Virus record (IMG/VR): IMGVR_UViG_3300030098_004823
Coordinates: 1 to 21,083 of that record
Length of the DNA stretch: 21,083 nucleotides
Reading direction: 5' to 3' (one strand)
From: a virus
A program made the translations under genes and the position numbers. The notes under the pieces are model-generated. The model did no database searches and was not told the origin of the DNA. It saw nothing but the letters and a program-made list of their open reading frames with translations. Within the stretch, counting starts at the first letter, position 1. Each line of letters begins with the position of its first letter. Shown piece after piece: positions 587-21,083 of the stretch.

Positions 587-587
587 T

Positions 588-4490: not shown

Positions 4491-4501
4491 GAGTAAATTA
4501 A

Positions 4502-5464: not shown

Positions 5465-5487
5465 GTAATAGTTAAGTTGATCATTAT

Positions 5488-5511
5488 ATGGGGGTGGGTA
5501 ACTACCCCCAT
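5488..5511 (+). terminator. GC-rich hairpin after the capsid gene (attenuator or partial terminator)
   Basis: ATGGGGGT (5488-5495) pairs perfectly with ACCCCCAT (5504-5511) around an 8-base loop, GGGTAACT. It sits in the 66-base gap after the major capsid stop and is the most GC-rich element in this AT-rich area. No run of T follows (TTATAACAC), so it is not a textbook intrinsic terminator. It could be a partial terminator, an RNA-stabilising 3' structure or a processing site that raises capsid expression over downstream genes. Confidence 0.5.
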
Positions 5512-5530
5512 TATAACACAGGAGAATTAA

Positions 5531-6310: not shown

Positions 6311-6531
6311 CAGAAGCACAAAAGCATAGGGAATATGTTATTAGTGTTTTATCGGAGCTTAAAAGCGATACTGAACACATTAAGGAAGGGGTAGCAAAGA
6401 ATGAGCAGCATCTTAGTGAAATTAATGGAAGGTTACGCAAGACAGAGGAGAAAGTCAAGTTCATGGAAGGCGTTGGGTCTATTCTCTCTGTTATGTTTAC
6501 TTTTTTTATCGGTTGGTTGTTTAGGAGATAG
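6307..6531 (+). CDS. XhlA-like membrane protein, holin candidate
   Basis: A protein of 74 residues coupled to the lysozyme gene by ATGA. Residues about 1-52 form an amphipathic coiled coil (SELKSDTEHIKEGVAKNEQH, then INGRLRKTEEKVKF). One hydrophobic helix follows near the C-terminus, GSILSVMFTFFIGWLF (about 57-72), ending in RR. This build matches XhlA / haemolysin-type lysis accessory proteins, in which the coil is cytoplasmic and the single C-terminal span anchors in the inner membrane. Its place directly after an endolysin makes a holin or holin-partner role likely. A spanin is less likely because the span is at the C-terminus. Confidence 0.65.
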   Translation: MTEAQKHREYVISVLSELKSDTEHIKEGVAKNEQHLSEINGRLRKTEEKVKFMEGVGSILSVMFTFFIGWLFRR

Positions 6532-7305
6532 ATGAGTAAAGTATTGAAAAGAGCTATCGTTACCCCTGATAAGCATTTTCCTTTACATTCACAACCTGCA
6601 ATTAACTGTGTTAAACAGGTTATTGAAATTGTGAAGCCTAATCTTTATATAGATTTAGGTGATACTGGTGAGTGGGGTAACTTCTCTCATTGGAAGTGGA
6701 AAAGAAAGAAAAAGCCTCCTTTAGAGATTATAATCCCTACATTAAACCAGGATGTTAAAGATGTTAATGAGGGTATGGATCAAATTGACGAGTCTTTAGA
6801 TAAGGTAGGTTGTGAAACTAAACACTTCATACAAGGCAATCACGAGCTTTGGTTAGATCAATTTGTAGATGAACATTCTTACTTGCCTCAGTATATGCCT
6901 AAAAATTGTTTAAGATTAGAAGATCGTGGGTATAAATACCATAAATGTGGTAAATTTCTTAAGGTAGGGAAGCTCAATTTTTATCATGGACATCTATATG
7001 GTGGGCAATATCATACCGCTAATCATCTTAGAAAGTTAGGTGCAAATGTTATGTATGGGCATTGGCACGACATCCAGCAAATGAGTGCAACCCATATAGA
7101 TGGACAGAAGTCAGCCTGGAGTATTGGATGCTTAAAGGATATGACAAGAGAAAGTAATGAGTGGTTAGGTGGTAGAGGACATAATTGGAGTCATGGGTTC
7201 GCTATAGTGGATTTCTTTAGAGGTGGCAATTTTTCAGTACATTTGATGCAAATAATTGATGGTGTTACTAGCTTGTATGGGGAGAAGATAGATGGGAATG
7301 TCTAA
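6532..7305 (+). CDS. Calcineurin-like metallophosphoesterase
   Basis: A 257-residue protein with the complete signature of the calcineurin-like phosphoesterase superfamily, which holds two metal ions and hydrolyses phosphoesters. The motifs are PDKHFP (Asp13, His15), DLGDTGEW (Asp44), QGNHELW (Asn103, His104, Glu105), FYHGH (His152/His154) and YGHWHD (His177, His179). A lysine-rich insertion, WKWKRKKKPP (54-63), lies between motifs two and three and may contact nucleic acid. The substrate is unknown; phage relatives are often annotated as DNA phosphoesterases or protein phosphatases. It follows the preceding stop with no gap and lies between two small membrane-protein genes in the lysis-like block, an unusual address for such an enzyme. 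There is no signal peptide, so it is cytoplasmic. Confidence 0.88.
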   Translation: MSKVLKRAIVTPDKHFPLHSQPAINCVKQVIEIVKPNLYIDLGDTGEWGNFSHWKWKRKKKPPLEIIIPTLNQDVKDVNEGMDQIDESLDKVGCETKHFIQGNHELWLDQFVDEHSYLPQYMPKNCLRLEDRGYKYHKCGKFLKVGKLNFYHGHLYGGQYHTANHLRKLGANVMYGHWHDIQQMSATHIDGQKSAWSIGCLKDMTRESNEWLGGRGHNWSHGFAIVDFFRGGNFSVHLMQIIDGVTSLYGEKIDGNV

Positions 7306-7723
7306 ACAAGAAATAGAGCAGAAGAAGAAAGAGCGAATGGCTGCTAAGAGGCTTATGATTGATAAGCTAAGATTTTGGGTTGGTGTATTTAGTGTTCCTA
7401 CTATATTGATTATGGCTTGTATGTTAATTGCCTCGGCATATTACTTAGGTGAAAGTCAGTTAGCGGTTGTAACAGGTCTTATTTCGACTATAACGATAGG
7501 TTTAATCAATGTTTTAAATGGGATGGTAGCTCCACCTGCACCAGAAGACCCATTAGCGACAGTAGCAAAAGATTTAGTACATCATCTTCAGGAGAACAGT
7601 AAGTCTGCTGAAATCATGATGGATAAAAACCACATTAAAATAGGTGGTAATGGAATGAAAGTAGCAACAAGTAACGATAAAGACTTAATATGGGGAAAAG
7701 ATGGCAAACCAAGAAAGAAATAA
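7292..7723 (+). CDS. Membrane protein with two transmembrane helices, holin candidate
   Basis: A 143-residue protein. The basic N-terminus (EQKKKERMAAKR) precedes helix one, FWVGVFSVPTILIMACMLIASAYYL (about 28-52), and helix two, LAVVTGLISTITIGLINVLNGMV (about 57-79), which form a tight hairpin. A soluble tail of about 64 residues follows, with VAKDLVHHLQENSKSAEIMMDKNH and a polar, lysine-rich end. The hairpin with a charged N-terminus would suit a class II-type holin, but the long tail is unusual for one. It overlaps the phosphoesterase stop by 14 bases and has GGGGAGAAG just upstream. A second ATG, two codons in, is equally possible. Function is inferred from topology and location only. Confidence 0.65.
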   Translation: MGMSKQEIEQKKKERMAAKRLMIDKLRFWVGVFSVPTILIMACMLIASAYYLGESQLAVVTGLISTITIGLINVLNGMVAPPAPEDPLATVAKDLVHHLQENSKSAEIMMDKNHIKIGGNGMKVATSNDKDLIWGKDGKPRKK

Positions 7724-7829
7724 AACACATAAAAGAAGAAAAGAAGCAATAGATGCCTTAAATGGCGAATATAATGGTTGGTGGATATATCAATATTACA
7801 AAGGGTTAGTTAGGGGAAGTGAGAAATAA
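7701..7829 (+). CDS. Small basic/aromatic hypothetical protein (42 aa)
   Basis: A 42-codon frame from the ATG at 7701 to the TAA at 7827-7829. It starts 22 bases before the previous stop and is preceded by a GGGG-AAAAG site. The peptide has a basic first half (KTHKRRKEAIDAL) and an aromatic second half (EYNGWWIYQYYKGL). It ends in a TAATG overlap with the next small gene. The ribosome binding site, coupling on both sides and neighbouring codon style support translation. No family is recognised. Confidence 0.5.
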   Translation: MANQERNKTHKRRKEAIDALNGEYNGWWIYQYYKGLVRGSEK

Positions 7830-7945
7830 TGGATTGGGGAAGATTATTAGATGCTTTTTTAACAAGTTTATTTATCGCAGTTCCTTTGTGGGTGTTTTAT
7901 GTAGGAATTAAGATATTAATAATGGATTGGTTAAATGGAAAATAA
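7829..7945 (+). CDS. Single-span membrane microprotein (38 aa)
   Basis: A 38-codon frame starting at the TAATG overlap at 7829 and ending in TAA at 7943-7945. After MDWGRL comes one hydrophobic helix, AFLTSLFIAVPLWVFYVGI (about 9-27), and a short polar end, MDWLNGK. The preceding codons contain GGGGAAG at 7813-7819, suitably placed as a ribosome binding site. As a tiny membrane protein in a lysis-like block it could be a holin, an antiholin or another envelope effector. Topology alone cannot decide. Confidence 0.5.
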   Translation: MDWGRLLDAFLTSLFIAVPLWVFYVGIKILIMDWLNGK

Positions 7946-8051
7946 TGTTAGCAAATCTGAAGATTTAAGATTTTACATAAACAATAAAGAAATAATATAT
8001 AAAATAAGGAGTGATTATGTTAGAAATGATCGCAGCAAATTTAACAGGTAA
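7935..8051 (+). CDS. Doubtful small ORF (38 aa)
   Basis: Open from the ATG at 7935 to the TAA at 8049-8051, in a different frame from both neighbours. It encodes a polar peptide with NNKEIIYKIRSDYVRNDR. It spans the otherwise noncoding gap 7946-8016 and runs through the ribosome binding site of the next gene. There is no convincing Shine-Dalgarno site before it. It may be chance, but it is the only frame that fills this gap. Confidence 0.25.
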   Translation: MENNVSKSEDLRFYINNKEIIYKIRSDYVRNDRSKFNR

Positions 8052-8316
8052 GGCAGTAGCTGTAGCAGGAGGAGGAGTTGCAGTTGTTGTCTCTACTTGG
8101 GTTTTAAAAAAGATACCTAATGCTACTATAAAAGCAAAGGTGGGGATGTGGATGTATGGACTAGGAGTTGGAGTAACTCTTGGAATGGCTAAATGGAAAT
8201 TTACTAAGCCAATATGGAATAAGGTTGTTGAGCCATATTTTATTGACTTAATAGATAATGTAATAATAACTGGACTATCAAAGTTTGTGGAGGGCATGAG
8301 ATCAGATAATGTCTAA
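8017..8316 (+). CDS. Small membrane protein upstream of fibre gene
   Basis: A protein of 99 residues from the ATG at 8017, chosen because AAGGAG (8006-8011) lies five bases upstream. A GTG at 8011 overlaps that site and is unlikely. Residues about 8-29, LTGKAVAVAGGGVAVVVSTWVL, are hydrophobic and glycine-rich. A second moderately hydrophobic stretch, VGMWMYGLGVGVTLGMA, is near 43-59, so two spans are possible. The C-terminal third is amphipathic (FIDLIDNVIITGLSKFVEGM). It overlaps the next gene by 8 bases. It could be a pore-former, holin or virion membrane-interacting protein; I recognise no family. Confidence 0.6.
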   Translation: MLEMIAANLTGKAVAVAGGGVAVVVSTWVLKKIPNATIKAKVGMWMYGLGVGVTLGMAKWKFTKPIWNKVVEPYFIDLIDNVIITGLSKFVEGMRSDNV

Positions 8317-9694
8317 TCTTAAATTAGATAATGCTTTAGATCATAATCTTAAACCAATAAAGGTAGAAGATAGAATTTTGCCTTTAAATGTTTCTGATAG
8401 TAAAATAGTTTATCCTAAAACACCTACAGATACTTACGAGGTGGCTAATAAAAAGTATGTAGATGATAATGCAGGTGGTAGTGGTGGTATAAGTGTAGAT
8501 AAGTTTTATAGGTCATCTGCTTTTTATCATGGTGGTGCAAATCTTGAATATATACCATTAGCAGGAGGTGCTATTGGCGAAGTGTCAAGTTTACAAGACT
8601 ACACTACCGATGATAGTAATTTTATTTGTCCTTACGACCTTAAAATAACTACAATATATGTACAAGCTACAAGAGCAAGTAGTTCAAGTTCTATTGCAGG
8701 AAATACATCTATGAGATTATATAAAAATGGTTCAACATTGTCTAATAAAGTAACAGTAAATATGTCTACAATAGGATATAATAGTACAGATATATATACA
8801 GTTTATACATTTGATTTTAGTGGAGAAACAAATACATATTCAGCAGGTGAAATCATGCAAATATCTATTGACCCAAGTAGTAGGAGAATATACATAATGA
8901 GTTTAACAAATAAGACAATAGCAAATACATATAAAGATGTATTACAAATTGACAATAGTAATAATGGAGCATCTGCTATAATAAAAACTGTAAAAAGTGG
9001 CAATGGCGTTGATACTGCATTAAGATTATCAAAGGAAATAGTAAGCGTAAGACCTTCAACTTCTGAAACTTCTACTGCATTAAGAGTGCAATCTTATGAA
9101 GGGAGTACATTACTGCAAGTAGATTCTACTAATACAGCAGTTAAAGCATTAGGACAATATGTAAATACAGGTGTTAAGCAATTTATGTATGCTGCTGCAC
9201 ATTCATATCCTGATACTGCTAATACTTGGAGTGCATTAGATGCAATAGGTGGAGGTAGATTTAGAAATTCTAATATAGAATTAGGTACAGGTTCGTCTCC
9301 TGCGACAACTTATGATGTATCAGGTGGAAATGTAGCTGATGATTTTGTACAATCAATTTGGTATGTTCCATTTAATATAGCTATTGATTCTGTAAAAGTA
9401 TGGTTTGGAGCGAGTAATTCATCGGGTGATGTAGTTAAATTTAGTTTGATGAGTTATACAATATCAACTGCAAATGATGCAACAGGTGGTGATTTAAGTG
9501 CAGGTGTAGAAAATTGTGTATCACCATCAACAATAACAGGTGCAGGATATGAACAGGCTTATTATCAATCATTAACAGTAAATACAGCAAATGTAGACGC
9601 AGGAAAAGCGATAGTAGCTTGTGTGCATCAAGATGGGACAAATTCTGATTTGACTGTAAATATGCAATTAGTATATCATTTAAGAAGTACATAA
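8309..9694 (+). CDS. Tail fibre / virion surface protein with repeated beta domains
   Basis: A 461-residue protein poor in Cys and rich in S, T, N and G, typical of trimeric phage fibres. Residues about 36-53, PKTPTDTYEVANKKYVDD, form the classic fibre hinge found at the base of many tail fibres. Two beta-sandwich-like regions follow. One is about 98-195 (CPYDLKITTIYVQATRAS) and the other about 310-460 (VPFNIAIDSVKVWFGAS). Between them, about 225-285, is a shaft-like stretch with ALRVQSYEGSTLLQVDSTN. Both sandwiches open with a similar hydrophobic beta hairpin, so one may be a copy of the other. The probable role is adsorption or head decoration. It is located between the lysis-like block and the neck genes rather than after the tape measure, so a head or neck fibre is as likely as a tail fibre. 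Confidence 0.65.
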   Translation: MSNLKLDNALDHNLKPIKVEDRILPLNVSDSKIVYPKTPTDTYEVANKKYVDDNAGGSGGISVDKFYRSSAFYHGGANLEYIPLAGGAIGEVSSLQDYTTDDSNFICPYDLKITTIYVQATRASSSSSIAGNTSMRLYKNGSTLSNKVTVNMSTIGYNSTDIYTVYTFDFSGETNTYSAGEIMQISIDPSSRRIYIMSLTNKTIANTYKDVLQIDNSNNGASAIIKTVKSGNGVDTALRLSKEIVSVRPSTSETSTALRVQSYEGSTLLQVDSTNTAVKALGQYVNTGVKQFMYAAAHSYPDTANTWSALDAIGGGRFRNSNIELGTGSSPATTYDVSGGNVADDFVQSIWYVPFNIAIDSVKVWFGASNSSGDVVKFSLMSYTISTANDATGGDLSAGVENCVSPSTITGAGYEQAYYQSLTVNTANVDAGKAIVACVHQDGTNSDLTVNMQLVYHLRST

Positions 9695-9711
9695 AATTAA
9701 GGAGATAAGTT

Positions 9712-11247
9712 ATGCCTAAAGCATTAGGATACGCCACAGGAACTTCGGCAACCTTTGAAAGTCAAAGTGGTGTAGTAGATAGAAGTAAAGCTGTTTCAAA
9801 AACTAAAAAAGGTATTGTATATTCTGCTGATACAAATAGTCTATTACTAGACATACAAAAAAGTACAAGTGAAACTACAGTACAATCTAGCGATATTAAG
9901 GCTTTAAATATTAAAAACACAGGTAAAGTTCCTGCATTTATTATTTTAGGATACAGATTATGGACTGAAGCCGCAACACAAAGTGCTAATAGTTATCATG
10001 TAAACTACTTACTCAAGCCAAATGAAGAATTGTATTTACCTACTATCAGAGGTGTAATAAGTGATGAAGATGTTGAGCCTCTTGGTGGGACTGCTGTAAC
10101 AGATGGTGTTCCAGATTCTAATATGTATACAGATTCTACCGCTAATGTGGATCATGCAACCTCAGCTACTATGGGTTCAGATGCGACACATACTACATTA
10201 AATTTAGAAGATGGTCATAGCAAATTCTTTAGGGTTGGAGATTTAATTAGATTAGAAGATGAAATATGTGAAGTTACTGCTACAGGCACAGGTGCAGATT
10301 TAGCGAATAGTACTTTAACAATTATTAGAGGTACGCATGGTTCGACAGCTGCAACACACGCTGATGAAGTAGCTGTAAGATTTCCATTTTTTAATGCTTA
10401 TCATAATTTTAATAAATATTCAGTAGCACAGACTGATGAAAGTGGAAGATTTAAGTGTTTTAATATGTTTGGTCAGGGTAGAGCAGCAACTGCTTTGCAA
10501 GGCATAGTACCTGGTAGTTTTTCAGTACAGTTTTATGAAGCAGGGTATCAAGAATTAGGTTTGACAGGAATTACATCTTCTACTAACTCAGGATTAACAG
10601 CTTCAACTGCTTATGAATTTGATATTCAGGTGGATGGCGGAACTAATTTTGATAATTTAAGTTTCACAACAGATTCTTCAAATGTTAATTTTGGTGGCAA
10701 GAATGGAATAGTCGCTAAGATACAAGAGGCATTAGATACTCAATTTTACACATCAGGCAATTTATTTGAAAAGAAAGTTCATGTCGAAATAGTTGGAGGT
10801 GATATAAGGTTTACATCAGGCTCTCATTTAGCTACATCTGCTATAGCTTTAGGAGCAGGTTCTAGTGGTACTGCTGAGTTTTTTGGAACAGGTAGAATCC
10901 CTGCTGCTCCTGCGGCAGCTACTGCTGTTGCAGCTAGATTAGCACCTACAGAAACTTACGATCCTGTTACTTACGGAAGTAGTTTTAAAGAAGACTTATT
11001 TGTGTATGATGATGGTAATGGTAATTTATTTGGCAAAGCTAGAGGAACTATAAATTATGAAACAGGTGCTGTTGATATGGTAGGATGTCCGCCTAATGCT
11101 CAGTTTGTTTATAATGTATTGCATACTTCGGCTTTTTCAGGTAAACAAGATGCTACAGAAGCTACAAAACAAAATAGTTTACAAGCAGTTTATGCTAACT
11201 TGCCTTCTCAGAAATGGGCAGGTGAAATAGAAATAGAGACATTTTAA
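9712..11247 (+). CDS. Virion structural protein
   Basis: A 511-residue protein preceded by AAGGAG. The N-terminal 115 residues resemble a beta domain that could pack on another virion protein (LNIKNTGKVPAFIILGYRLW). Residues about 170-225 hold a module seen in many phage structural proteins, VGDLIRLEDEICEVT followed by LTIIRGTHGSTAATHADEV. Residues about 298-380, with YEFDIQVDGGTNFDNLSF, FGGKNGIVAKIQEALDTQF and GGDIRFTSGSH, resemble the flagellin hook IN-like domain. An Ala/Pro linker (PAAPAAATAVAARLAPTE) is near 396-413. The C-terminal part (about 440-511) has GTINYETGAVDMVGCPP. The content fits a multi-domain decoration, fibre or neck protein. Exact location in the particle is unknown. Its stop overlaps the next microprotein start (TAATG). 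Confidence 0.6.
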   Translation: MPKALGYATGTSATFESQSGVVDRSKAVSKTKKGIVYSADTNSLLLDIQKSTSETTVQSSDIKALNIKNTGKVPAFIILGYRLWTEAATQSANSYHVNYLLKPNEELYLPTIRGVISDEDVEPLGGTAVTDGVPDSNMYTDSTANVDHATSATMGSDATHTTLNLEDGHSKFFRVGDLIRLEDEICEVTATGTGADLANSTLTIIRGTHGSTAATHADEVAVRFPFFNAYHNFNKYSVAQTDESGRFKCFNMFGQGRAATALQGIVPGSFSVQFYEAGYQELGLTGITSSTNSGLTASTAYEFDIQVDGGTNFDNLSFTTDSSNVNFGGKNGIVAKIQEALDTQFYTSGNLFEKKVHVEIVGGDIRFTSGSHLATSAIALGAGSSGTAEFFGTGRIPAAPAAATAVAARLAPTETYDPVTYGSSFKEDLFVYDDGNGNLFGKARGTINYETGAVDMVGCPPNAQFVYNVLHTSAFSGKQDATEATKQNSLQAVYANLPSQKWAGEIEIETF

Positions 11248-11321
11248 TGCCATACGGAAAAGGAACATACGGAAAAAAGAAGGGTAGACCAAAAAAGAAA
11301 AGAAAGAAAGGTCGTAAATAA
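11247..11321 (+). CDS. AT-hook-like microprotein (24 aa)
   Basis: A 24-codon frame linked at both ends by TAATG overlaps: the start shares bases with the stop of the 511-residue protein, and its own stop shares bases with the next start. The peptide has a YGKGTYGKK opening, then GRP (13-15) embedded in lysines and arginines (KKKGRPKKKRKK). This is the core of the AT-hook, which inserts Arg-Gly-Arg/Pro-type side chains into the minor groove of AT-rich DNA. Fifteen of the residues are Lys or Arg. The double coupling and clear composition argue for a real translated product. It may be a condensing peptide packaged with DNA or bound to phage DNA; function is inferred from motif only. Confidence 0.7.
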   Translation: MPYGKGTYGKKKGRPKKKRKKGRK

Positions 11322-12361
11322 TGGCAATTTCAAGTACAATAGAATATTGCACAGATTCAGATGTTTATCAGGTATATCCTGGTATTAATGCTGTAGATGG
11401 CAAAACAAGATTATATGGTGGATGGGTAGAAAGCGGTACATCACATTTATATTATATGTACAACACAGGATATACTGCTGTACTTTATAAAGATGGACAA
11501 GATTTAGGGTCAGAAACTACAGGTACTTTAGATGCCGATCCTGCTAATCAATGGCATTATACTGAGGCAGATGATAGGATTGAATACTATAAAGAAAGTA
11601 GTTCAGTTGCCGCTTTAAACGCTTCTATATGGGAAGCAGGTGTAGACTTTCAAACTTTACTACAGAACGCTAGAAGAAACGCATCAAGATATTTTGAGTC
11701 AAGAGTAGACTTTAGAACTGCTAAAGAAATTTCTAAAGATAGAGAAGGCAACTATCCTTATATTGTTATTCGTTGTACAGCACTTATAGCTGCCACGCTT
11801 TTAATTAAAGCACACGATGCTTCTGATCCAATATTTGAGCGTGGAGTATTAGAGATATTTGAAGAAGAAATAGATAATATTATTGATGGTATTAACACAG
11901 GCAAGATTACTCTTACACATCAAGTTACTATGGACTCTAGTAAAGGTATTATTAGAGATATTCAGTACACTCAAGGTACATCTCCTGATACAGGATTGAG
12001 ACCAGTAGAGCTTAGAGGAAAAGCTACAGGATTAAGTGGATTTGATTTAATAGAATTAAGGATTTCTACTGTAGGTGCTTTAGGTGTAGGGAAATATAGC
12101 GTAAAAGTTAAAGATAGTGATAAACTGAAAAATGACGAAGTGATTACAGATGAAATTATTTCAGGTGATTTTCAAGATTTAGCTTATGGTTTACAAGTAA
12201 GATTTGCAGGTGGAAGCGATGCTTCGGAGGCAAAATCAGGCGACAAATGGGAAATAGAAGTATATAGTTACTCTATGGACTCTACAGTATCAGAAGTAAA
12301 CTCAATGACACAAACAAGAGGTGGATATGGCGTTGCAGTTAAACGCAGCCTCAGGGTATGA
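11321..12361 (+). CDS. Head-tail adaptor / neck protein with extra C-terminal domain
   Basis: A 346-residue protein. The N-terminus IEYCTDSDVYQVYPGIN (about 7-23) matches the opening of phage gp6 / DUF1320-like head-tail connectors. An inserted beta segment (about 30-95) contains YMYNTGYTAVLYKDGQ. The helical core continues through FQTLLQNARRNASRYFESRVDF (about 112-133) and the acidic helix ERGVLEIFEEEIDNIIDGIN (about 174-193). About residue 225 onward is a second domain with VELRGKATGLSGFDLIELRI, GLQVRFAGG and SGDKWEIEVYSY. It resembles the beta domain with a C-terminal GD-x-W/Y signature often attached to phage tail proteins. So the usual connector appears enlarged by at least one decoration domain. 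It overlaps the next gene by about 35 bases, and gene order from here to the major tail protein fits a neck block. Confidence 0.6.
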   Translation: MAISSTIEYCTDSDVYQVYPGINAVDGKTRLYGGWVESGTSHLYYMYNTGYTAVLYKDGQDLGSETTGTLDADPANQWHYTEADDRIEYYKESSSVAALNASIWEAGVDFQTLLQNARRNASRYFESRVDFRTAKEISKDREGNYPYIVIRCTALIAATLLIKAHDASDPIFERGVLEIFEEEIDNIIDGINTGKITLTHQVTMDSSKGIIRDIQYTQGTSPDTGLRPVELRGKATGLSGFDLIELRISTVGALGVGKYSVKVKDSDKLKNDEVITDEIISGDFQDLAYGLQVRFAGGSDASEAKSGDKWEIEVYSYSMDSTVSEVNSMTQTRGGYGVAVKRSLRV

Positions 12362-12806
12362 TGATGTCTTTTGGACTAATGTCCTTAAAAAGATAGAAGC
12401 GTTAATAAATGATTCATCTACTTATGGTCATGTTTATATAGCACCTACAATGCAAGATAAATCGCCTCAGAGTGTGCGTATATGGGGAGATTCTGCTGAT
12501 TCTGAGGTGTTAAAGCATACAGAGTGGATAAAGCGATATAACGCAAATATATCCCTTTATATGATTTCAGAGTCTCCAACAGAGAATTTTTACAAAAGTT
12601 TTTATGAGCAATCGGAAGTTCTTTATCAAGTAATGGCTAATAATAATACAGTTACAGGTGCTTTAGGCTGGTACGATGGTGTAGTTGAAGATATAATTTA
12701 TGATGAATTAGATTCTATAGAAGAAGGGATTGATGGATTGCATAAGGCAAGTTTTGATTTTTCTTGCCTCGTTAATCGTATAACAACAGCGACAATTAAT
12801 TTATGA
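12327..12806 (+). CDS. Tail completion / terminator-like protein (copy 1)
   Basis: A 159-residue protein from the ATG at 12327, chosen because AAGAGGTGG lies just upstream; a GTG at 12321 is the alternative. Landmarks are DDVFWTNVLKKIEALI (about 12-27), VYIAPTMQDKSPQSVRIWGD (about 36-55), EWIKRYNANISLYMIS (about 66-81) and FYKSFYEQSEVLYQVM (about 88-103). These same landmarks recur in the N-terminal 145 residues of the next gene, so the two are paralogs. Size, alpha/beta layout and position between the connector and the tail tube fit the neck terminator or tail-completion class. The assignment rests on context, not on a diagnostic motif. The stop overlaps the next start (ATGA). Confidence 0.55.
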   Translation: MALQLNAASGYDDVFWTNVLKKIEALINDSSTYGHVYIAPTMQDKSPQSVRIWGDSADSEVLKHTEWIKRYNANISLYMISESPTENFYKSFYEQSEVLYQVMANNNTVTGALGWYDGVVEDIIYDELDSIEEGIDGLHKASFDFSCLVNRITTATINL

Positions 12807-15691
12807 CAACTTTACTTAAAAAAGATTATCAATATAGTAGCGTACTTTGGGAAGAAGTTATGCAAAGGGTTCAAGAAATTATTCGTGATGAATACAATAT
12901 ATCTCCTTATGTGTCGCCAACTTTAAACCCTAAAACACCATCTCCATTTAGAATTTGGTCATCTGCTCAAGGTACAGATGCACTATATGTTGGGGCATGG
13001 CATAAAGAGTACACAATATCTGTAAATCACTATTTAAAAACAGAGGATAGTGAAAGATTTTATAGAAAAGTTTACGAAGAGTCTGAAAGGCTTTATCAGT
13101 TATTTTTCAACAACCAAGGCACACAATCTACACAAACTTTAGGATTTTTTGGTGGTAGACCAGAAGGAATACAAATTTCACAAGAAGGTGATTATTTTAG
13201 AATTGAAGTTTTATTTACTTGTGAAGTATTGAGAGCTGATGATGTGGTTTATGTACAAACATTACCTTCTGAGATTCGAGCAACAAGAAGGGCATTGGAA
13301 TTACCTTTTAACTTTTGGTCTTTAGATTTTGATGGTACAGATGATTCTGTAAATTGTGGTAGTGTTTCATCTTTAGATGATATATTTGATGGTGGAGGTT
13401 CAGTTTCTGTATGGTTTAATGCAAGTGCAATCAATACTACACATACTATTGTTTCTAAAAAAAGTGGTGGAACAGGTTGGTGGGCTATTAGAATTTCAGA
13501 CCATGGTGGCAATAAAGGTAGATTTTATTTTGCAAAAACTTTTGATGGTGGCAGTTCTTACACTACACAGCAATCTACAAGAGATATTAATCCTAATACA
13601 TGGTATCATGCTGTTGTTGTATATAATGCCGATTCTGCTTCAAATAGAATAACTGCATATATAAATGGTGAAGAAGTTACAAATTTAATAGCTGATGGGT
13701 CGGAAATGGCAGGTACATCTGCACCAACAGGAACAAGAATTTCAGATGCTAGTCAAAACTTTTTAATAGGAAAAGACAATCAATTTGAATTTTTAGGGCA
13801 AATATCTGAGTTATCTGTATTTAATACTGAACTTACATCCTCTACTGTATCAACTATATACAACAATGGGCAACCAATACTTTTAACAGAAAATCAAGGT
13901 GGTTACAAGTCTAGTGGTAATTTAGTATCGTATTATAGAATGGGTAGTGGTAGTGGTGATGATAGGTCTACTGACGGATTGATAGCTGACCAAGTTGATA
14001 GTAGTATTGGTAGTGAATTATTAGATGAAACGAGTGATTTTACTGATGCTGCTTGGGATGATGACGGAACAATAACTTTTTCTGATGGGAATATAGTTTT
14101 TGCAAGAACTGATGATGGAGATGGTTCATATACAACAGGCTACTTAACAGAAGCTAATCCCTTTACAGTAGAGCCAAATGCAACATATAAAGTAGAATTA
14201 ACCATATCATCTTATACTGCTGGTAAGTTAATAATAAACTCTAATATAACTTATGGTAGTAATGGTACTATAGAATCAGCAGGAACTCATATAGGATACA
14301 TAAGACCTCCAGACACCCATGAAATAAGGTTAAAGCCTGATGGGTTACAAGGATTTGTAGGTATTTTAAGTGCTTTTAGTGTTAAAAAAGTTAGTGGTAA
14401 TGCAGGAATTATGCAAAACTTCGACAGCCTAGATTTTAGAACTAATGTACCACTATTATATGACAAAGCATTATTTTCAAATTCATTGTTGTTTGATGGT
14501 ACTGATGACCAAATAAATTGTGGTAGTGGTTCTAGCATTGACAATATTTTTGATGGAGGTGGTTCTGTTAGTTTATGGTTTAATCCATCTGCACAATCTT
14601 CTACGCTTGGAATAATTAAAAAACAGTATGTAGGTGGTTGGTATTTTGATTTAGCTGACCATTCTGGTGGAACATCTTGGAGGGGTAAGTTTGTACAAAC
14701 ATTTGATGGGGATAATTATCAGATTCAAGGTTCTTCAAGAACTTTTAGTATAGGTAATTGGTATAATGTTGTAATAGTTTATAATAGTTCAGCTACAAGC
14801 AATACTGCTACTATATATGTCAATGGTGAGGTACTTTCAATAACTACAGATTCTACGCCTTCAGGTACAAGGCATGACGATTCGAGTGGCAATTTACTAA
14901 TTGGCGACACAGGTAGTTATGAGTTTTTTGGGAATATAGCTGATGTAGCTTTGTTTAATTCTACTTTAGATGCCACTAATGTAACTGCTATATACAACTC
15001 TGGGAAACCTATAGATTTAACTTGTGATGCAGGTAATTATAATAACGCTAATAATTTAGTGGGTTATTGGAAAATGGGAGATGGATATTTAGATGAATTG
15101 CCGAGTGCTACTAATGAAGGTGGAATAATAGACCAAGTAACGCCAATAATAGATGATAAAGAATATGTAAATTTTTCTACACCACCTGCTGGGCAAGGTT
15201 ACCCAACTCATGATTTTAGTAATGGTTTAGACGGTTGGATTACTAGTCCTTTTGACACCTCTGATTTTGTTACTATAAGTAATAGTCAAGCGACATTGAC
15301 AGGGAATCGGACATTAACTTATATAGAATTAGCAGATGTTGTGCCAGATGGCGATAGTATTTATAGAATAGAAATTGATATAGATTCATTTACTATGGGT
15401 GCAAATGGTGAAGGTTGGGGATATACAGGTGGGGGCGTTATTTCTTATGTGGGTAGAAGAAATATTACCACAACAGGCAAACATATAGAATATTTTAAAT
15501 ATAATCCAGGTTCAGGTGCTGCTTTACATATAAGGGTAGAAGTAGGTGGTGCATCTACGGATTTGGAAAAAGAAACATTTGGTTCTAATACTTTAGTAGT
15601 CAATAGTGTTAGCGTTAAAAAAGTACAAGGTAATATTGGTATTTGTAAAAATATGAACGCATCAGCACAATCAATTAGCGTACCAAAATAG
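12803..15691 (+). CDS. Terminator-like domain fused to a duplicated LamG lectin module
   Basis: A 962-residue protein. Residues 1-148 are a second copy of the preceding tail-completion-like protein (VLWEEVMQRVQEII, PYVSPTLNPKTPSPFRIW, RFYRKVYEESERLYQLFF). Residues about 172-548 and 560-952 are two copies of one module. Each contains a LamG/concanavalin A-like sandwich (172-361 and 562-740) that opens FDGTDD-x-NCGS, then FDGGGSVS-x-WF, and ends with a TIYNNGQPI or AIYNSGKPI strand. Each module continues with a Y-x-MG ... DQV linker and a second beta domain (about 404-535 and 803-945), like a carbohydrate-binding module. These second domains close with VKKVSGNAGI-x-QN or VKKVQGNIGI-x-KN. LamG domains usually bind glycans or other polymers. 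A neck ring carrying such arms could form a collar or whiskers that adhere to cell or mucus polysaccharide. An ATGA overlap couples it to copy 1. Confidence 0.75.
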   Translation: MTTLLKKDYQYSSVLWEEVMQRVQEIIRDEYNISPYVSPTLNPKTPSPFRIWSSAQGTDALYVGAWHKEYTISVNHYLKTEDSERFYRKVYEESERLYQLFFNNQGTQSTQTLGFFGGRPEGIQISQEGDYFRIEVLFTCEVLRADDVVYVQTLPSEIRATRRALELPFNFWSLDFDGTDDSVNCGSVSSLDDIFDGGGSVSVWFNASAINTTHTIVSKKSGGTGWWAIRISDHGGNKGRFYFAKTFDGGSSYTTQQSTRDINPNTWYHAVVVYNADSASNRITAYINGEEVTNLIADGSEMAGTSAPTGTRISDASQNFLIGKDNQFEFLGQISELSVFNTELTSSTVSTIYNNGQPILLTENQGGYKSSGNLVSYYRMGSGSGDDRSTDGLIADQVDSSIGSELLDETSDFTDAAWDDDGTITFSDGNIVFARTDDGDGSYTTGYLTEANPFTVEPNATYKVELTISSYTAGKLIINSNITYGSNGTIESAGTHIGYIRPPDTHEIRLKPDGLQGFVGILSAFSVKKVSGNAGIMQNFDSLDFRTNVPLLYDKALFSNSLLFDGTDDQINCGSGSSIDNIFDGGGSVSLWFNPSAQSSTLGIIKKQYVGGWYFDLADHSGGTSWRGKFVQTFDGDNYQIQGSSRTFSIGNWYNVVIVYNSSATSNTATIYVNGEVLSITTDSTPSGTRHDDSSGNLLIGDTGSYEFFGNIADVALFNSTLDATNVTAIYNSGKPIDLTCDAGNYNNANNLVGYWKMGDGYLDELPSATNEGGIIDQVTPIIDDKEYVNFSTPPAGQGYPTHDFSNGLDGWITSPFDTSDFVTISNSQATLTGNRTLTYIELADVVPDGDSIYRIEIDIDSFTMGANGEGWGYTGGGVISYVGRRNITTTGKHIEYFKYNPGSGAALHIRVEVGGASTDLEKETFGSNTLVVNSVSVKKVQGNIGICKNMNASAQSISVPK
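13316..15658 (+). repeat. Internal duplication of a LamG plus carbohydrate-binding-like module
   Basis: Two diverged direct copies occupy about 13316-14446 and 14480-15658. The start of each copy is still recognisable at DNA level: TTTGATGGTACAGATGA at 13327 matches TTTGATGGTACTGATGA near 14491. Further matches are the TTTGATGGTGGAGG and TTTGATGGAGGTGG stretches and the ACTATATACAAC / GCTATATACAAC strand ends near 13854 and 14988. The centres are much less alike, so the duplication is old or under diversifying pressure. Confidence 0.75.
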
Positions 15692-15700
15692 GAGAAAAGT

Positions 15701-15949
15701 ATGGGATTTGAAAATAGAAAATGGGTAATAATAACCCTTGCAAGTTACACAGAAGAAGAACTAGAAAATTTAGTGGGTAACGCTATACAAAGTAGTGTAA
15801 ATTCCCTACGGAAGAGTGTAGACTCTACTAAGGCGATCCTAAAATGGGATGGCGAAACGCCTTCTGTCTTTAGTGGTATGACTACTTATAATCATAGTGA
15901 AATTTTAACAATATTAGCAACAGAGGAATGGACAGCAAATGAAGATTAA
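15701..15949 (+). CDS. Small hypothetical protein after the LamG fusion
   Basis: An 82-residue protein with a good AGGAG site nine bases before its ATG. It opens RKWVIITLASYTEEELENLV, followed by a helical segment (about 29-45). WDGETPSVFSGMTTYNHSEILTIL lies near 49-72, then an acidic end. It has no transmembrane segment or known catalytic motif. It overlaps the next small gene by 11 bases. Located between the lectin fusion and the major tail protein, it is probably a small virion or assembly protein, but I do not recognise its family. Confidence 0.6.
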   Translation: MGFENRKWVIITLASYTEEELENLVGNAIQSSVNSLRKSVDSTKAILKWDGETPSVFSGMTTYNHSEILTILATEEWTANED

Positions 15950-16112
15950 ATTAAAAGAAGGTAGTTTGCCGAATATGTGGAAACAATGTGGGGCAACTTA
16001 TAAAGACTGGCAAGATTTACATTCAGGGAAAGAAATTGAAGTTAAAAATGTCCCTGATTCAATAAAGCACTTAGTAGATGTTTCTGCTAATAAAAAAAAG
16101 GAGACTAAATAA
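15939..16112 (+). CDS. Small basic protein before the tail tube gene (57 aa)
   Basis: A 57-codon frame from the ATG at 15939 (inside the end of the preceding gene) to the TAA at 16110-16112, which overlaps the next ATG (TAATG). The peptide has MKIKLKEGSL, then PNMWKQCGATYKDWQDLHSG, and a KEIEVKNVPDSIKHLVDV stretch that looks like a small beta domain. The end is lysine-rich. It contains the GGAG site of the tail tube gene near its 3' end. Tight linkage on both sides supports expression. Its general form resembles the N-terminal part of the 73-residue protein at 5531, though too weakly to claim homology. Confidence 0.6.
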   Translation: MKIKLKEGSLPNMWKQCGATYKDWQDLHSGKEIEVKNVPDSIKHLVDVSANKKKETK

Positions 16113-17116
16113 TGGCAACAGTAGCACATGCGTTTTCTCCAAAAGAGTTTAAATGTTTCGTCATTTCTGATGCAACTAACGCAGGAACATCAGGAATACA
16201 CGCCACAAATATGCAACAATTAGATGTTGATTCAATAGGTTTTCCAAGCCTGAATGTTAATCAAGTTTTAGATGTTAGAAGTGGTGTTGGACATACTCTG
16301 AAGGATGAAGATTTTTTTCAAGATAATAAAATGAGAGTTGTAGAGCTTTCTTTGTCAGGCACATTACACGATGATGTAGCACATAGATTGCTTATAGCTA
16401 ATATTTGTGGAGCAGCAGAGGCAAATGACACAGATCAAACGATTGCAAGTGGACATAAAATAGTAGCACAAAAATATGGTGCTGCTGTAACAAATAACGC
16501 ATCATCGCTAACTGTAGTTCTTCAACCATCAGATGTTACTAATCAAACAGGTTTGGAATTTCCAGGAATGGTTGTAACAAACTTTGCAATATCTGCGGAT
16601 GCAGGTACTGAAGGTGGACTATATAAATGGAGTGCAACACTTCAATCAGGCAAAGTCCCTGATTTAAATTCTACTGCTGCGGCAGGTAGTACAGCATATG
16701 CAAATGGTACTACTACTACTTTAGCTTCTGCAAGTGGAGTTGAAGTTTATAATGCGGATGCAACATTAAATAGCTTTACTACCACAATAGATTATCCTGC
16801 TGTATTTACAGGGATTACATCTACAGGTTATGAAGTTGTTAGTAGAGGGGCAGAATGTTCTGTAACTCATGATTGTCAAGTCAAATACGATGGGAACACT
16901 AAAGCGTTAGTAAATTCATTTGACGGACAAACTGCTGCAAACGCAGAAACTACATTTATTGTTGTAAATAATGGAAAGTTTGGTGTAGATACTGCTAATG
17001 GAGTATTAACTAATGTAGCATATTCAGAAGGTGATATAATGATGCTTGATGTTTCAATTAAAGCTGTCGATGATGGTACAGATGAGTTGCTTATAATTGA
17101 TTTAAGCGATGGATAA
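16112..17116 (+). CDS. Major tail (tube) protein
   Basis: A protein of 334 residues immediately before the tail chaperone genes, where siphophages normally carry the tube protein that stacks in hexameric rings around the tape measure. It is rich in A, T, S, V and D with alternating beta strands. Typical elements are RVVELSLSGTLHDDVAHRLL (about 74-93), FPGMVVTNFAISADAGTEGG (about 149-168), and a YKWSATLQSGKVPDL strand-turn directly after it. Residues about 185-212 (STAAAGSTAYANG and following) are a low-complexity linker. The second half (about 213-334, with FTTTIDYPAVFTGI) may form the partner strands or an added domain. It is preceded by a GGAG site inside the small upstream ORF. A tube-protein role is strongly supported by position. 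Confidence 0.8.
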   Translation: MATVAHAFSPKEFKCFVISDATNAGTSGIHATNMQQLDVDSIGFPSLNVNQVLDVRSGVGHTLKDEDFFQDNKMRVVELSLSGTLHDDVAHRLLIANICGAAEANDTDQTIASGHKIVAQKYGAAVTNNASSLTVVLQPSDVTNQTGLEFPGMVVTNFAISADAGTEGGLYKWSATLQSGKVPDLNSTAAAGSTAYANGTTTTLASASGVEVYNADATLNSFTTTIDYPAVFTGITSTGYEVVSRGAECSVTHDCQVKYDGNTKALVNSFDGQTAANAETTFIVVNNGKFGVDTANGVLTNVAYSEGDIMMLDVSIKAVDDGTDELLIIDLSDG

Positions 17117-17126
17117 AGAGGTAAAA

Positions 17127-17408
17127 ATGAAAGAAGTTAAACTTAAAAATGGTAAAAAAGTAAAGTTAAAAGAGTTGTCTTTAGATGATAGGGACTTTCT
17201 TTTAGACAATACACAATATGTTATGGATAAAGGTGAGATACAGGAAGTCAAAATGATGCACTCTACTCTCACCAAGTATCTTAGAACAGGTATAGATGGC
17301 GACACATCTGATAAGACACTAATGAAGATGTCTTTTGAAGATAGAGTTGAAATCTTTAAAGCAATACAGGGGAATATGTTACTGGGGGAAGAGAATCCCT
17401 CAAGCTAA
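17127..17408 (+). CDS. Tail assembly chaperone, lambda gpG-like
   Basis: A 93-residue protein between the major tail gene and the tape measure, the invariant place of the siphophage tail chaperone. The start at 17127 is supported by AAAGAGGT just upstream. An in-frame ATG at 17109, inside the tail gene, would add six residues. The N-terminus is a lysine-rich beta hairpin, VKLKNGKKVKLKELS, typical of this family, followed by helices (DDRDFLLDNTQYV; FEDRVEIFKAIQGNML). The stop at 17406-17408 is preceded by a GGGGG run. The -1 frame is open from 17360 past that stop to 17830, as expected for a programmed frameshift to a longer G-T product. Confidence 0.75.
   Translation: MKEVKLKNGKKVKLKELSLDDRDFLLDNTQYVMDKGEIQEVKMMHSTLTKYLRTGIDGDTSDKTLMKMSFEDRVEIFKAIQGNMLLGEENPSS
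17384..17390 (+). other. Candidate -1 frameshift (slippery) site
   Basis: G-GGG-GAA in the chaperone frame, 16 bases before its stop codon. Shifting back one base re-pairs the GGG codon perfectly with GGG, while GAA would re-pair to GGA with one mismatch, so slippage would depend mainly on the P site. A second, weaker candidate is G-GGG-AAT at 17369-17375. The -1 frame is blocked by a TAA at 17357-17359, so the shift must occur between there and the stop. A hairpin lies about 80 bases downstream (17470-17499), farther than is normal for a stimulator. Confidence 0.55.
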
Positions 17409-17830
17409 CGCTTAATATTCTTAATGAAAGTTGGTGCGAGGGTTGTCAGTATCACTCGTTCCCCTATAAGGCTACACCACCTATAAGTGGGAGTAAGCCT
17501 CGGCAGTTTGAGTCTATGCAAGATGTATGGGATGTTGTTGATTTACTAATAGAGGAGGTGAAACATTTTAATAATGAGGGTAAGAGCTTTGATGTTAGTC
17601 GTTCAATTAATGCTCAGTTACCCTTTTTTACTTGCAAAAACCTATTTCATTCTAAAGAAAATCAAACAGACATTCAAAGATACATATACTGCCAAGACTT
17701 TAATATTCAACCCTATCCAGGCAGTTATGGTGAGCAACCTGTTTTATGGATAGAAAAAGCGTTTATAATAAAGAGTGCGTTAGCAAAATTAAACAAGGAT
17801 AAGATAGAAGATGGCAAGAGCAGAAAATAG
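17387..17830 (+). CDS. Tail chaperone T-like extension, expressed by -1 frameshift
   Basis: Continuation of the chaperone in the -1 frame. If the ribosome slips at 17384-17390, the product reads on through GRESLKLTLNIL, then NESWCEGCQYHSFPYKATPP, and ends at the TAG at 17828-17830. It gains about 147 residues, with a CEGC pair and an all-helical remainder (VWDVVDLLIEEVKHF; LWIEKAFIIKSALAKL). The first ATG in this frame, at 17516, has no Shine-Dalgarno site and would leave 107 bases without coding, whereas the upstream frame is open and protein-like. That favours frameshifting as in lambda gpG-T, where the rare longer form contacts the tape measure. It overlaps the tape measure start by 20 bases. 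The shift itself is predicted, not shown. Confidence 0.65.
   Translation, partial: GRESLKLTLNILNESWCEGCQYHSFPYKATPPISGSKPRQFESMQDVWDVVDLLIEEVKHFNNEGKSFDVSRSINAQLPFFTCKNLFHSKENQTDIQRYIYCQDFNIQPYPGSYGEQPVLWIEKAFIIKSALAKLNKDKIEDGKSRK
17470..17499 (+). other. Potential RNA hairpin within the T-like region
   Basis: GGCTAC (17470-17475) can pair with GTAAGCC (17493-17499) with one bulge, and inside it CCAC (17477-17480) pairs with GTGG (17487-17490) around a CTATAA loop. It lies inside the frame-shifted extension, about 80 bases after the G run. It might be a long-range frameshift stimulator or simply coding sequence able to fold. Confidence 0.3.
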
Positions 17831-19595
17831 TATAACGATTAAATTTACAGCCAAGGGCGAAAAGAATTTAGAACTTGCTTTAAAAAAATTAGATGTAGCA
17901 ACTAAGCGTTTAACTGGACAAACATCTAAATATGAAAAAGAAGTTCATCTTGTAAACCAAAGAGTAAGTGCTAATTCTAAAGGTATTAGTAAATTACAAA
18001 GTAGTATATCTGTATATCGTAATAAGTTATTATTAGCATCTTTTGCTACAACAATGTTTGGTGCTTCAATAGGAAAACTAGCAAAGTTATATGGAGAACA
18101 AGAAGCTGCCGAAAAAAGGTTACAAGCCGCATTAGGTAGGACATCTACTGCATTACTAGCTCAAGCATCCGCTTTCCAACAAAATTCTAAATTTGGAGAT
18201 GAAGAAGTTTTAAACGCTATGGCATTAGCGGCAGCTTATACAGATAATGAAAAAGCAATAAAAAAATTATCTGAAGCAGCTTTAGATTTATCTACTGCAA
18301 AAGGTATGGACTTAAATACTACTATGGATTTATTAACTAAGTCTGTATTCTCTTCAACTAATGCTATGAGTAGATATGGTATTGGTATAGAGGGTGTTGT
18401 TGGCAGTACTAAAAGACTAGAAAGTGCTACTGATAGTATAGCAAAATTATATGGTGGGAGAGCAAAGGATGATACTGAAACATTTTTAGGTGCTTCAAAA
18501 CAATTAGGTAATGCACTTGGAGATGTAGGTGAAAATTTGGGTTCTGTATTTATTCCTTTTTTACTTATATCTGCAAAAGGAATGAAAACATTTGCTGAAA
18601 CTTTTGATGAAAATAGAGTCAAGTCTTATGCTACTGCACTAAGTGGAGCTGCTATAGCTTATGGAGTATATGCTGTTGCTACTGGAAAAGCTGCAAAAGC
18701 TATGGTTCTGTTTAATAAAATATCTAAAAAAAATATAGCTGTATTAGCAGCTATGGTAGTAATTGGAGAGTTAATTGAAAAAATAAATTTATTTTCAGAT
18801 GGAACATCTGATTTAGAGGGAGAAATTGACAAATTAAATGGAACTCTTGGAGATTTAAATTTTAAACAAAAAGTTACTTTGCAACAGCAACAGGCTTTAG
18901 CAAACTCTGCTATGTTATTAGGTTTCGCAACAAATGAATTAAACGAATTTGAACAAAAAGAAGCTATCCAGTCTGCAAAAAAAGTACAATTAAACGAATT
19001 GCTTAATGCAGGACTTATTACGCAAATAGAATTTCAAACTAAAATGAATCAACTTACATTAGAAGATATTAATTTAGAAAAATTAAGACAACAAGCAAAG
19101 TTATCATCTTTTTCGGCTATAAGTGGGGCTTTAGCTAATTTAAATAAAAACTCTAGTGGTTCTGCTAAGGCTACAGCTCGTTTGATGCAAATACAAGCAG
19201 GTATAGATGCTTATGCAGCAGCAAATAGAGCATTAGCTTCAGGAGTTCCTCCTTTTAGTTATATTCAAGCGGCTGCATCTTATGCTATGGGGGCGGCAAA
19301 TGTTGTTCAAATTGAAAAAGGTATAGGCAAGTTTGAATCTGGTGGTTTAATTGGTGGTCGTAGACATTCACAAGGTGGAACTATAATAGAAGCAGAGCAA
19401 GGTGAGTTTGTTATGAGTAGGAGTGCTGTCGAGGCAGTTGGTATAGAAAATATGAATAGAATCAATCAAGGTGGCGGTGCAGGTATTACTGTAAATGTCT
19501 CAGGAAATGTAATGACACAAGACTTTGTAGAAAATGATTTAGCAGAAGCAATTAAAGAGGCAGCTCGTAAAGGTGCTGATTTCGGTATTTCATGA
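17811..19595 (+). CDS. Tape measure protein
   Basis: A 594-residue protein directly after the tail chaperones. It sets tail length and is threaded inside the tube, then helps DNA entry. The N-terminal 70 residues are a basic coiled coil (LELALKKLDVATKRLTG). A hydrophobic segment, LLLASFATTMFGASIGKL (about 73-90), follows, then long helical repeats rich in A, L and K. Membrane-like segments occur near 275-297 (SYATALSGAAIAYGVYAVAT) and 309-322 (IAVLAAMVVIGELI). The C-terminal region FESGGLIGGRRHSQGGTIIE (about 505-524), then EQGEFVMSRSAVEAVG, is a hallmark of many tape measures. The length is short for siphophages. At roughly 0.15 nm per residue it implies a tail of about 90 nm (inference). 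No lytic transglycosylase or peptidase domain is seen. The stop overlaps the next start (ATGA). Confidence 0.88.
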   Translation: MARAENSITIKFTAKGEKNLELALKKLDVATKRLTGQTSKYEKEVHLVNQRVSANSKGISKLQSSISVYRNKLLLASFATTMFGASIGKLAKLYGEQEAAEKRLQAALGRTSTALLAQASAFQQNSKFGDEEVLNAMALAAAYTDNEKAIKKLSEAALDLSTAKGMDLNTTMDLLTKSVFSSTNAMSRYGIGIEGVVGSTKRLESATDSIAKLYGGRAKDDTETFLGASKQLGNALGDVGENLGSVFIPFLLISAKGMKTFAETFDENRVKSYATALSGAAIAYGVYAVATGKAAKAMVLFNKISKKNIAVLAAMVVIGELIEKINLFSDGTSDLEGEIDKLNGTLGDLNFKQKVTLQQQQALANSAMLLGFATNELNEFEQKEAIQSAKKVQLNELLNAGLITQIEFQTKMNQLTLEDINLEKLRQQAKLSSFSAISGALANLNKNSSGSAKATARLMQIQAGIDAYAAANRALASGVPPFSYIQAAASYAMGAANVVQIEKGIGKFESGGLIGGRRHSQGGTIIEAEQGEFVMSRSAVEAVGIENMNRINQGGGAGITVNVSGNVMTQDFVENDLAEAIKEAARKGADFGIS

Positions 19596-21083
19596 TAACT
19601 TCTTTAAAATTTGATTCAGACACGCTATCAAATACTACTAATGTAGTTCCTTTAGTGTATATAGAAAAACCTATTGGTGATGAGGTTAATATTATGGGAT
19701 TTTCTACTTATCAATTAGAATTAACAGATATAAATGATGAGCCTTTGCAATACCATCCTCTTTTGTTAAATATTCCTTCTATAAGTGAAAAGATAAACAT
19801 AGAAACTAGAAAGTTTGTAATTTCATCAGTAACTTTAAATTTATCAAACATGGAATATTTAGGTGAAAAACTTAGCGATAAATATAATTTATTGATTAAT
19901 TCTAATGTATATATTTATTACAAAACTCAAAGTGCAAATACTTTAGAAGAATGTTTAAAAGTATATTCTGGAAAAGTAAAAAGAATTAATCATTCTAATG
20001 AAGATATAAATCTAATTTTAGAAGATATGTCTCAAGAAAAAATACAAAAACAAATTCCTAAAAATAAATTAAGTGATAATGGGTCAATAGTTCCTAAATA
20101 TAGAAATAAACCTATCCCTTTGGTTTATGGCATGGTAAATAAAAGTCCATGTGTATTAAAAGGTAGAGATATAATAATAGAATCAGAGGATATAACAGGA
20201 CTAGCTTTTGACCATCATCATAGTATTTTTAATAATTATAAAGAATATTCAATGTATGTACACGATGGAGATGAAACTTATGCAAATATTCTTCCATCAA
20301 TAGAAAAAATAATAGATGGAAGTTTTGAAATAGGCGAAGAAGATGATCCTATTAAATATAAAATACAAAGTCAATGGTATCAAAAACAAGATATTAATGG
20401 TTATAATACAATAGTTAAATTATATAATACAGAATTATTAAAAAGAAATGGTTTGCAAGTTAGAGTTTTTTCAAAACCTTCAGAGCCTGAACTAGTAAGG
20501 TATACTGAAAATCTTATTCATGAAGAGGTTATTGGATTAGAAGATGGTGATGAAATTAATCTTTTTGATGCTGATTCTTTATATACAGAAACTTTAGAAT
20601 CCATAGAGAATTTAACTGATAATGATTATTCTAATAAAGTATTAATATTGGATCATCCAGAATATTTAGTAGGTAGTACAGAATATGATATTGATTGGAA
20701 TTTAATATTAAATTCAGAATTTTTATATTATCAATTAAGGTTAAGTCCAATAAAATCTTCTAAAATAGAAATAATAAAAAATATTAGAGTAGCTATAAAT
20801 GGGCATGTTATGCCAACTCCCTTTAATCCTTTATATAATGAGCCAAGTATAGCAGAATTATTAGCATATTCAATAAGACAAACAAATCTTTCTAGTTATG
20901 AAGATTTTGCAGGAGATAATTTTATTTATGATTATTCTAATTTGTTAATATTTGATGAAGCAGAAATAGATTCTCATATAGATTATGCAGAAGACGGAGA
21001 TTTAGTTGGGGAAGAAGGTCTTAATGAAAAAAATGTAGATATTGCCTTTAAAGATATGACATCTCAAGATGGTGTGGCAGGTT
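19592..21083 (+). CDS. Tail tip / distal tail structural protein (partial, runs off the window)
   Basis: Open from the ATG at 19592, overlapping the tape measure stop, to the window end: 497 codons with no stop. The N-terminal 190 residues have NVVPLVYIEKPIG, then NIETRKFVISSVTLNLSNMEY. Later parts are VYSGKVKRINHSNEDINLIL and YRNKPIPLVYGMVNKSPCVL. Such 'epitope of surface strand then leD-x-S ... iP-x-vyG' patterns occur in tail-tip or baseplate proteins that follow the tape measure in marine phages. The remainder is acidic, N- and D-rich, beta-strand-like and without known enzyme motifs. It should start the tail-tip block that makes the adsorption apparatus. Its DNA is the most AT-rich of the window (only 13 of 60 bases G or C at 20041-20100), with many ATA, AAT and TTA codons. 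Confidence 0.65.
   Translation, partial: MITSLKFDSDTLSNTTNVVPLVYIEKPIGDEVNIMGFSTYQLELTDINDEPLQYHPLLLNIPSISEKINIETRKFVISSVTLNLSNMEYLGEKLSDKYNLLINSNVYIYYKTQSANTLEECLKVYSGKVKRINHSNEDINLILEDMSQEKIQKQIPKNKLSDNGSIVPKYRNKPIPLVYGMVNKSPCVLKGRDIIIESEDITGLAFDHHHSIFNNYKEYSMYVHDGDETYANILPSIEKIIDGSFEIGEEDDPIKYKIQSQWYQKQDINGYNTIVKLYNTELLKRNGLQVRVFSKPSEPELVRYTENLIHEEVIGLEDGDEINLFDADSLYTETLESIENLTDNDYSNKVLILDHPEYLVGSTEYDIDWNLILNSEFLYYQLRLSPIKSSKIEIIKNIRVAINGHVMPTPFNPLYNEPSIAELLAYSIRQTNLSSYEDFAGDNFIYDYSNLLIFDEAEIDSHIDYAEDGDLVGEEGLNEKNVDIAFKDMTSQDGVAG

Follow-up and report, generated by a model that had tools for sequence, protein, structure and literature searches.

The tandem genes and the lectin arm

The window analysed here, the whole of a 21,083-nucleotide stretch of the virus record IMGVR_UViG_3300030098_004823 (itself a 22.9-kb fragment in IMG/VR), carries the structural module of a siphophage, within which two adjacent plus-strand genes encode a plain tail-terminator-like protein (T1) and a 962-amino-acid (aa) fusion, T2-LamG, in which a second terminator domain is followed by laminin G (LamG) and carbohydrate-binding module (CBM)-like domains. 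T1, assigned from its paralogy to T2, a hidden Markov model (HMM) of the shared domain (hereafter T) and synteny, lies at 12321-12806 and is read as 161 aa from a GTG at 12321 or as 159 aa from an ATG at 12327; T2-LamG occupies 12803-15691, and the two reading frames overlap by ATGA. BLASTP aligns residues 13-125 of T1 with residues 11-123 of T2-LamG (72.8 bits, E=1e-19, 38 of 115 positions identical, or 33%), a similarity far above chance which, at the level of sequence, makes T1 and residues 1-147 of T2-LamG paralogs. The original prediction had called the shorter protein and the start of the longer one tandem paralogs on the strength of shared landmarks (W..V, P-T, RIW, W-K-Y and FY...YE-SE-LYQ), and all of these fall inside the 115-aa alignment.

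Behind the T2 anchor (residues 1-147; 12803-13243) and a linker conserved across the window's clade (residues 148-171; 13244-13315), two stretches of T2-LamG match Pfam Laminin_G_3 (PF13385; E=2e-29, 103.1 bits against a curated cut-off of 27.6). These are LamG domain 1 (residues 172-395; 13316-13987) and LamG domain 2 (residues 555-775; 14465-15127), which are repeats of one another (38% over 354 aa, E=1e-57). One further module is repeated between and behind them, the HMM of module A, a beta-sandwich (residues 396-548; 13988-14446), also matching module B (residues 776-950; 15128-15652) at E=8e-25, so that the protein runs in the order terminator-LamG-CBM-LamG-CBM. The CBM_4_9 profile matches this module in 6 of 35 relatives (best 4.9e-7), the window's own copy being unmatched, and the AlphaFold2 (AF2) model of module A (pLDDT 76) has CBM29, CBM86 and BiXyn10A CBM1 as its leading Foldseek matches in the Protein Data Bank (PDB; E 2e-4); both modules are predicted to be CBM-like and would bind glycans. 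Of the domains foreseen for the second copy, LamG is in this way recovered by profile, and the carbohydrate-binding-like ones are predicted. The protein ends in a short conserved tail (15653-15688), which reads MNASAQSISVPK in the window clade; most unfused LamG genes end in ...DTP.

The fold of the anchor

Profile searches gave no sequence-family match of the window's copies to siphophage tail terminators. Relatives were gathered because the N-terminal domain of T2 matches no profile: a scan with a divergent copy, from locus L066, returned 80 loci, which an iterated HMM linked to the copies in the window. These relatives match Pfam Phage_tail_terminator_8 (PF20765) weakly and under its cut-off (4.6e-4 to 0.011), and a PDB sequence search with the T alignment returned nothing meaningful.

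An AF2 model of the T2 N-domain, built on a 34-sequence alignment and ending at residue 160 (pLDDT 78.9, with low confidence over linker residues 148-160), has the order helix, three strands, helix, two strands (H-E-E-E-H-E-E). Foldseek returned 18 PDB matches to it at E<=0.001, nearly all of them tail terminators, collars or tail caps, including the diffocin collar (4e-6), the monocin cap, T5 p142, an entry named as the T1 stopper-terminator, lambda gpU (3fz2), GTA and R4C; judged by name, Listeria antigen B and an unannotated Salmonella protein are the clear exceptions. The alpha-beta fold of known terminators is present in the domain by both model and search, and on the AF2 model the T2 N-domain is of tail-terminator fold, in keeping with the earlier expectation of a neck protein. 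T1 is assigned the same fold because it is homologous to T2, the model having been made for the T2 N-domain. In the window and in the listed relatives, T lies between the head-tail adaptor and tail-tube genes, both of these neighbours being named from gene order.

Variation among sister phages

Between the window and contig L002, which are near-identical phages at T1 (98.4% nucleotide (nt) identity), the nt identity of T2-LamG per 30 codons stays at 93-100% through anchor and linker, the anchor by itself being at 97-100%, falls to 38-57% in LamG 1, returns to 97% at the conserved block at the C-terminal end of that domain and falls to 30-59% in module A, alternating onward through an 80% block, a drop in LamG 2, a 90-92% block and a drop in module B. 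The core of LamG 1 and module A are hypervariable. Contigs L001, L003 and L010 alternate likewise, with a milder drop in LamG 1 for L001 and a lower anchor identity (70-97%) for L003 and L010, and the 82-aa plus-strand gene that follows T2-LamG (15701-15949) is 91-98% identical between these phages. The pattern is, as far as sequences go, that of binding modules that can be exchanged while their mount stays fixed, and recombination would be the cause of the module swaps.

This variation also bears on what the modules are for. They might serve adhesion to mucus or particles and not specific host recognition, as LamG and CBM folds bind diverse glycans in general. However, strong diversification among near-identical phages is what variation of the host surface would be expected to produce, though it is compatible with both purposes, and adhesion to mucus or particles is a possible but doubtful explanation.

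Spread and origins of the fusion

The T2-LamG fusion is uninterrupted in four other IMG/VR contigs (L001, L002, L003 and L010) and begins in L011, which ends at the contig edge. The clade to which the window belongs, with tandem T and T-LamG genes, comprises the window, these four and L011/L026 (one contig); a second, divergent clade with the same tandem comprises L066/L086, L087 and L088, together with L089, which is cut before the LamG. Within each clade T1 and T2 form separate, well-supported branches of the tree, and both copies in both fused clades are under purifying selection, with ratios of non-synonymous to synonymous substitution rates (dN/dS) of 0.06-0.37. Sequencing error or mis-assembly, a concern attached to the original prediction, is ruled out as the source of the fusion: the reading frame is intact across independent contigs, the fusion recurs in the second clade, and the separate lectin genes of relatives lie elsewhere in the genome. 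The wider alternative of an artefactual or pseudogenised fusion is already refuted, the frame running without a break through L066, L087 and L088 as well as the four other contigs, with dN/dS well below 1.

By far the commonest state, seen in more than 70 related contigs, is a single unfused T of about 144 aa upstream of the tail-tube position, and this is likely to be ancestral. On the tree the fused copies require two changes, even with starred branches only: T1 and T2 of the window make up one starred group (100/99), and those of L066 lie within a starred group of 11 rows that includes single-copy relatives. A constraint that unites all fused copies in a single clade lowers the log-likelihood by 44 units (approximately unbiased (AU) test, p=0.00014). 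A single origin of all fusions is disfavoured by the tree and by the AU test, with p weakening to 0.037 when two long-branch rows are left out and the deep branches being long; two origins are likely, not proven, on these sequences.

No named phage with the same fusion emerged from tblastn searches whose queries were the complete fusion, a relative with one copy and the L066 fusion. HTVC104P gp70 and S-SKS1 SWZG_00005 were rejected, having LamG alone in common and upstream genes that are not T homologs, as was the Pelagibacter phage HTVC111P, whose capsid is distantly related but whose gp40 gave no match to T in BLASTP or phmmer. A terminase scan of genome contigs for a host returned no match. 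The T fold is also matched within two longer BFVD models, H9YSW2 (392 aa) and A0A6J5L8B8 (946 aa), a structural hint that there may be more fusions elsewhere.

The LamG cassette and its small partner

Relatives of the 82-aa gene occur at about 60 viral loci. In nearly all of these a LamG or ConA-like gene comes immediately before, and in most of them the gene starts at most about 10 bases from the LamG stop or overlaps it. The protein, widespread and unannotated, has the consensus NRKWvIitladytde...TLRKsvDgTKAILKWDGdTP. The pairing is found in the cyanophage S-SKS1 too, where SWZG_00004 shares 40% identity with the 82-aa protein. A 79-aa protein encoded behind a LamG gene in another phage, HTVC022P gp44, proved unrelated. 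Among 50 T-bearing contigs, which may be fragments, so that absences count weakly, 8 carry the 82-aa gene, all 8 with LamG, while 41 have neither and one has LamG alone. Because the gene is so tightly paired with LamG, its product is suggested to be an adhesin assembly factor.

In most relatives with visible context the cassette is unfused and lies behind the capsid gene. L001 has an unfused LamG and 82-aa cassette (371-2835) alongside its terminator fusion, and its capsid gene looks unlike that of the window. In L064 (4433-6252) the LamG cassette is fused to an N-terminal part of about 155 residues directly after the tail hub gene, and this hub-side fusion gives the cassette a second type of anchor in the virion.

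A putative adhesion collar at the neck

Tail terminators form hexameric rings; these close the tail tube and help to join the tail to the head. In the model that we consider the probable one, with moderate confidence, T was duplicated and its second copy became a terminator-anchored, glycan-binding collar at the neck. A tandem duplication in a marine-type siphophage would have yielded two tail-terminator genes. The first, T1, would have kept the plain role of closing off the completed tail tube and connecting it with the head, and T2 would have been joined, in frame, to a mobile cassette for display that consists of a LamG/CBM adhesin gene and its 82-aa partner gene, the partner probably aiding folding or assembly of the adhesin. 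T2 would then be the neck anchor, most likely as its own ring beside the terminator or else as part of the terminator ring, and would hold several long arms of the composition LamG-CBM-LamG-CBM, an accessory adhesion device that attaches to extracellular glycans or to those of the host surface. Recombination at conserved blocks would exchange the binding modules from phage to phage and leave the anchor conserved. Such a collar is the simplest outcome of fusing a second terminator-type protein to putative glycan-binding modules.

Several points weigh against this model. One terminator ring normally suffices for a phage, no family profile matches the window's N-domain significantly, and the TM-scores of its model to PDB entries are moderate (0.5-0.6). 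The branch lengths of T1 and T2 are alike and so favour neither as the tail cap. Further adhesins may sit beyond the record, which is a 22.9-kb fragment. The paralogy of the two copies, the terminator fold, the domain make-up, the cassette, the pattern of diversity and the two separate fused clades were computed, and from these we infer ring formation, neck location, glycan binding, recombination as the source of the module swaps and the role of the 82-aa protein.

The two copies might instead share a single ring, T1 and T2-LamG forming one mixed hexamer in which some subunits of the terminator bear lectins. Co-assembly would fit the common fold and the neighbouring, ATGA-coupled genes, and both copies are retained under selection, but 33% identity is low for interchangeable subunits and the two are separate, well-supported branches in each clade; we regard this arrangement as unlikely. 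It is also conceivable, if quite improbable, that T2 is the working terminator, so that the tail cap itself bears the arms, and that T1 has moved to a stopper- or spacer-like role in the neck. T2 is nearest to the tail-tube gene, which is the place of single-copy terminators, and is at least as constrained as T1 (dN/dS 0.09-0.26 for the T2 anchor and 0.12-0.37 for T1), whereas it is T1 that shares the plain layout of the 70-odd single-copy homologs, and branch lengths favour neither copy. The collar model also has a bolder form, in which duplication and capture of the LamG/CBM cassette took place at least twice and left phages with a pair of terminator-type proteins, one of them devoted to a rapidly re-armed lectin collar; the collar would then be an adhesion organelle of the neck that arose convergently on a new type of anchor. 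This extension is tentative, being credible enough to pursue without yet deserving to be called probable.

Neighbouring genes in the window

Several gene names in the window rest on gene order or sequence appearance, without a family match. The minus strand carries the terminase gene together with the portal-position and neck-like genes (56-3840), which diverge from the capsid and tail genes on the plus strand (3960-21083), an order that is unusual in siphophage. Along the plus strand come the capsid, lysozyme-like, phosphodiesterase-like and fibre-like genes, structural genes, the adaptor-position gene, T1 and T2-LamG, followed by the 82-aa gene, the tail-tube-position gene, the chaperone-like genes, the tape measure and a baseplate-position gene.

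The 346-aa protein at the head-tail adaptor position (11321-12361), placed by synteny in the group, had no match in family searches, its adaptor role following from gene order; its gene is 59-100% identical in nt to that of L002 per 30 codons. In this protein and in that of 9712-11247 the ends are conserved (97-100% nt) and internal patches are variable (54-80%), which suggests surface-exposed inserted regions in the adaptor-position and structural proteins.

The 334-aa protein at the major tail (tube) protein position (16112-17116) precedes the chaperone-like genes and the tape measure and is likewise identified from gene order, with no family match. This gene and that of the tape measure (17811-19595) exist as distinct alleles in the window, L001, L002, L003 and L010, the tube-position protein being 28-42% identical in aa to the L001 and L002 alleles and 95% to that of L003; the 42% to L002 is found though T1 and the chaperone-like genes are about 98% identical in nt. 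The chaperone-like genes (17109-17408 and 17516-17830) have a G / G-T arrangement in which the downstream frame is -1, open from 17360 and overlapping the end of the first gene. A run of GGGGGAAG near 17390 is also present in L066 despite differing flanks, and a programmed frameshift is likely here.

Relation to known systems and implications

The T proteins resemble lambda gpU, SPP1 gp17, T5 p142 and the diffocin collar in fold, size and gene position (T1 by homology, T2 in its N-domain), and differ from these known terminators in being two tandem copies, one of which carries about 800 residues of lectin modules. A LamG/ConA-like gene paired with one of approximately 82 aa also occurs in S-SKS1 and marine viral contigs, unfused there and fused to a terminator copy here.

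Carbohydrate-binding appendages mounted at the neck have been described mainly in dairy siphophages, where they have another anchor. The neck passage structure (NPS) of lactococcal 936 phages has a near-identical N-terminal part of about 180 residues and C-terminal CBMs that vary between groups, and its CBM bound host cells (PMC6669499); domain swapping with the N-terminus kept has also been described (PMC10684548), and the NPS gene of TP901-1 sits behind the baseplate genes (PMC4493119). T2-LamG shares with the 936 and P335 NPS a conserved N-terminal anchor and a variable carbohydrate-binding C-terminus, predicted here from genes. Unlike the BppU-like NPS anchor, that of T2 is a duplicated terminator lying between the terminator and the tail tube, and its modules are LamG and CBM; BppU is absent from the top 50 Foldseek matches of the T2 anchor. 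Because the anchor differs, T2-LamG would work like an NPS without being one, and a collar analogous to, and not homologous with, the lactococcal NPS is the best reading.

The original prediction also put the system forward as a candidate for an undescribed one. This stands as regards papers and isolates, no terminator-lectin fusion having been found in the open-licence literature or among named phages, but is only partly true at the database level, because the PHROGs family phrog_347 (394 positions), already labelled 'tail terminator', contains LamG-type sequence. It matches the LamG parts at E=1e-18, and many of its matches are LamG-only proteins. That it contains this fusion cannot be confirmed, because its first approximately 85 positions matched no T domain tested; in T-LamG fusions the matches start at about position 87 or later.

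If the collar model is true, uncultivated marine-type viruses have, apparently on two occasions, duplicated a ring protein used once per virion and turned it into a mount for adhesins that can be exchanged. This would give a direct test of how phages gain adhesion devices without altering the baseplate, and would draw attention to the widespread cassette of LamG and 82-aa genes, whose small partner has no annotation.

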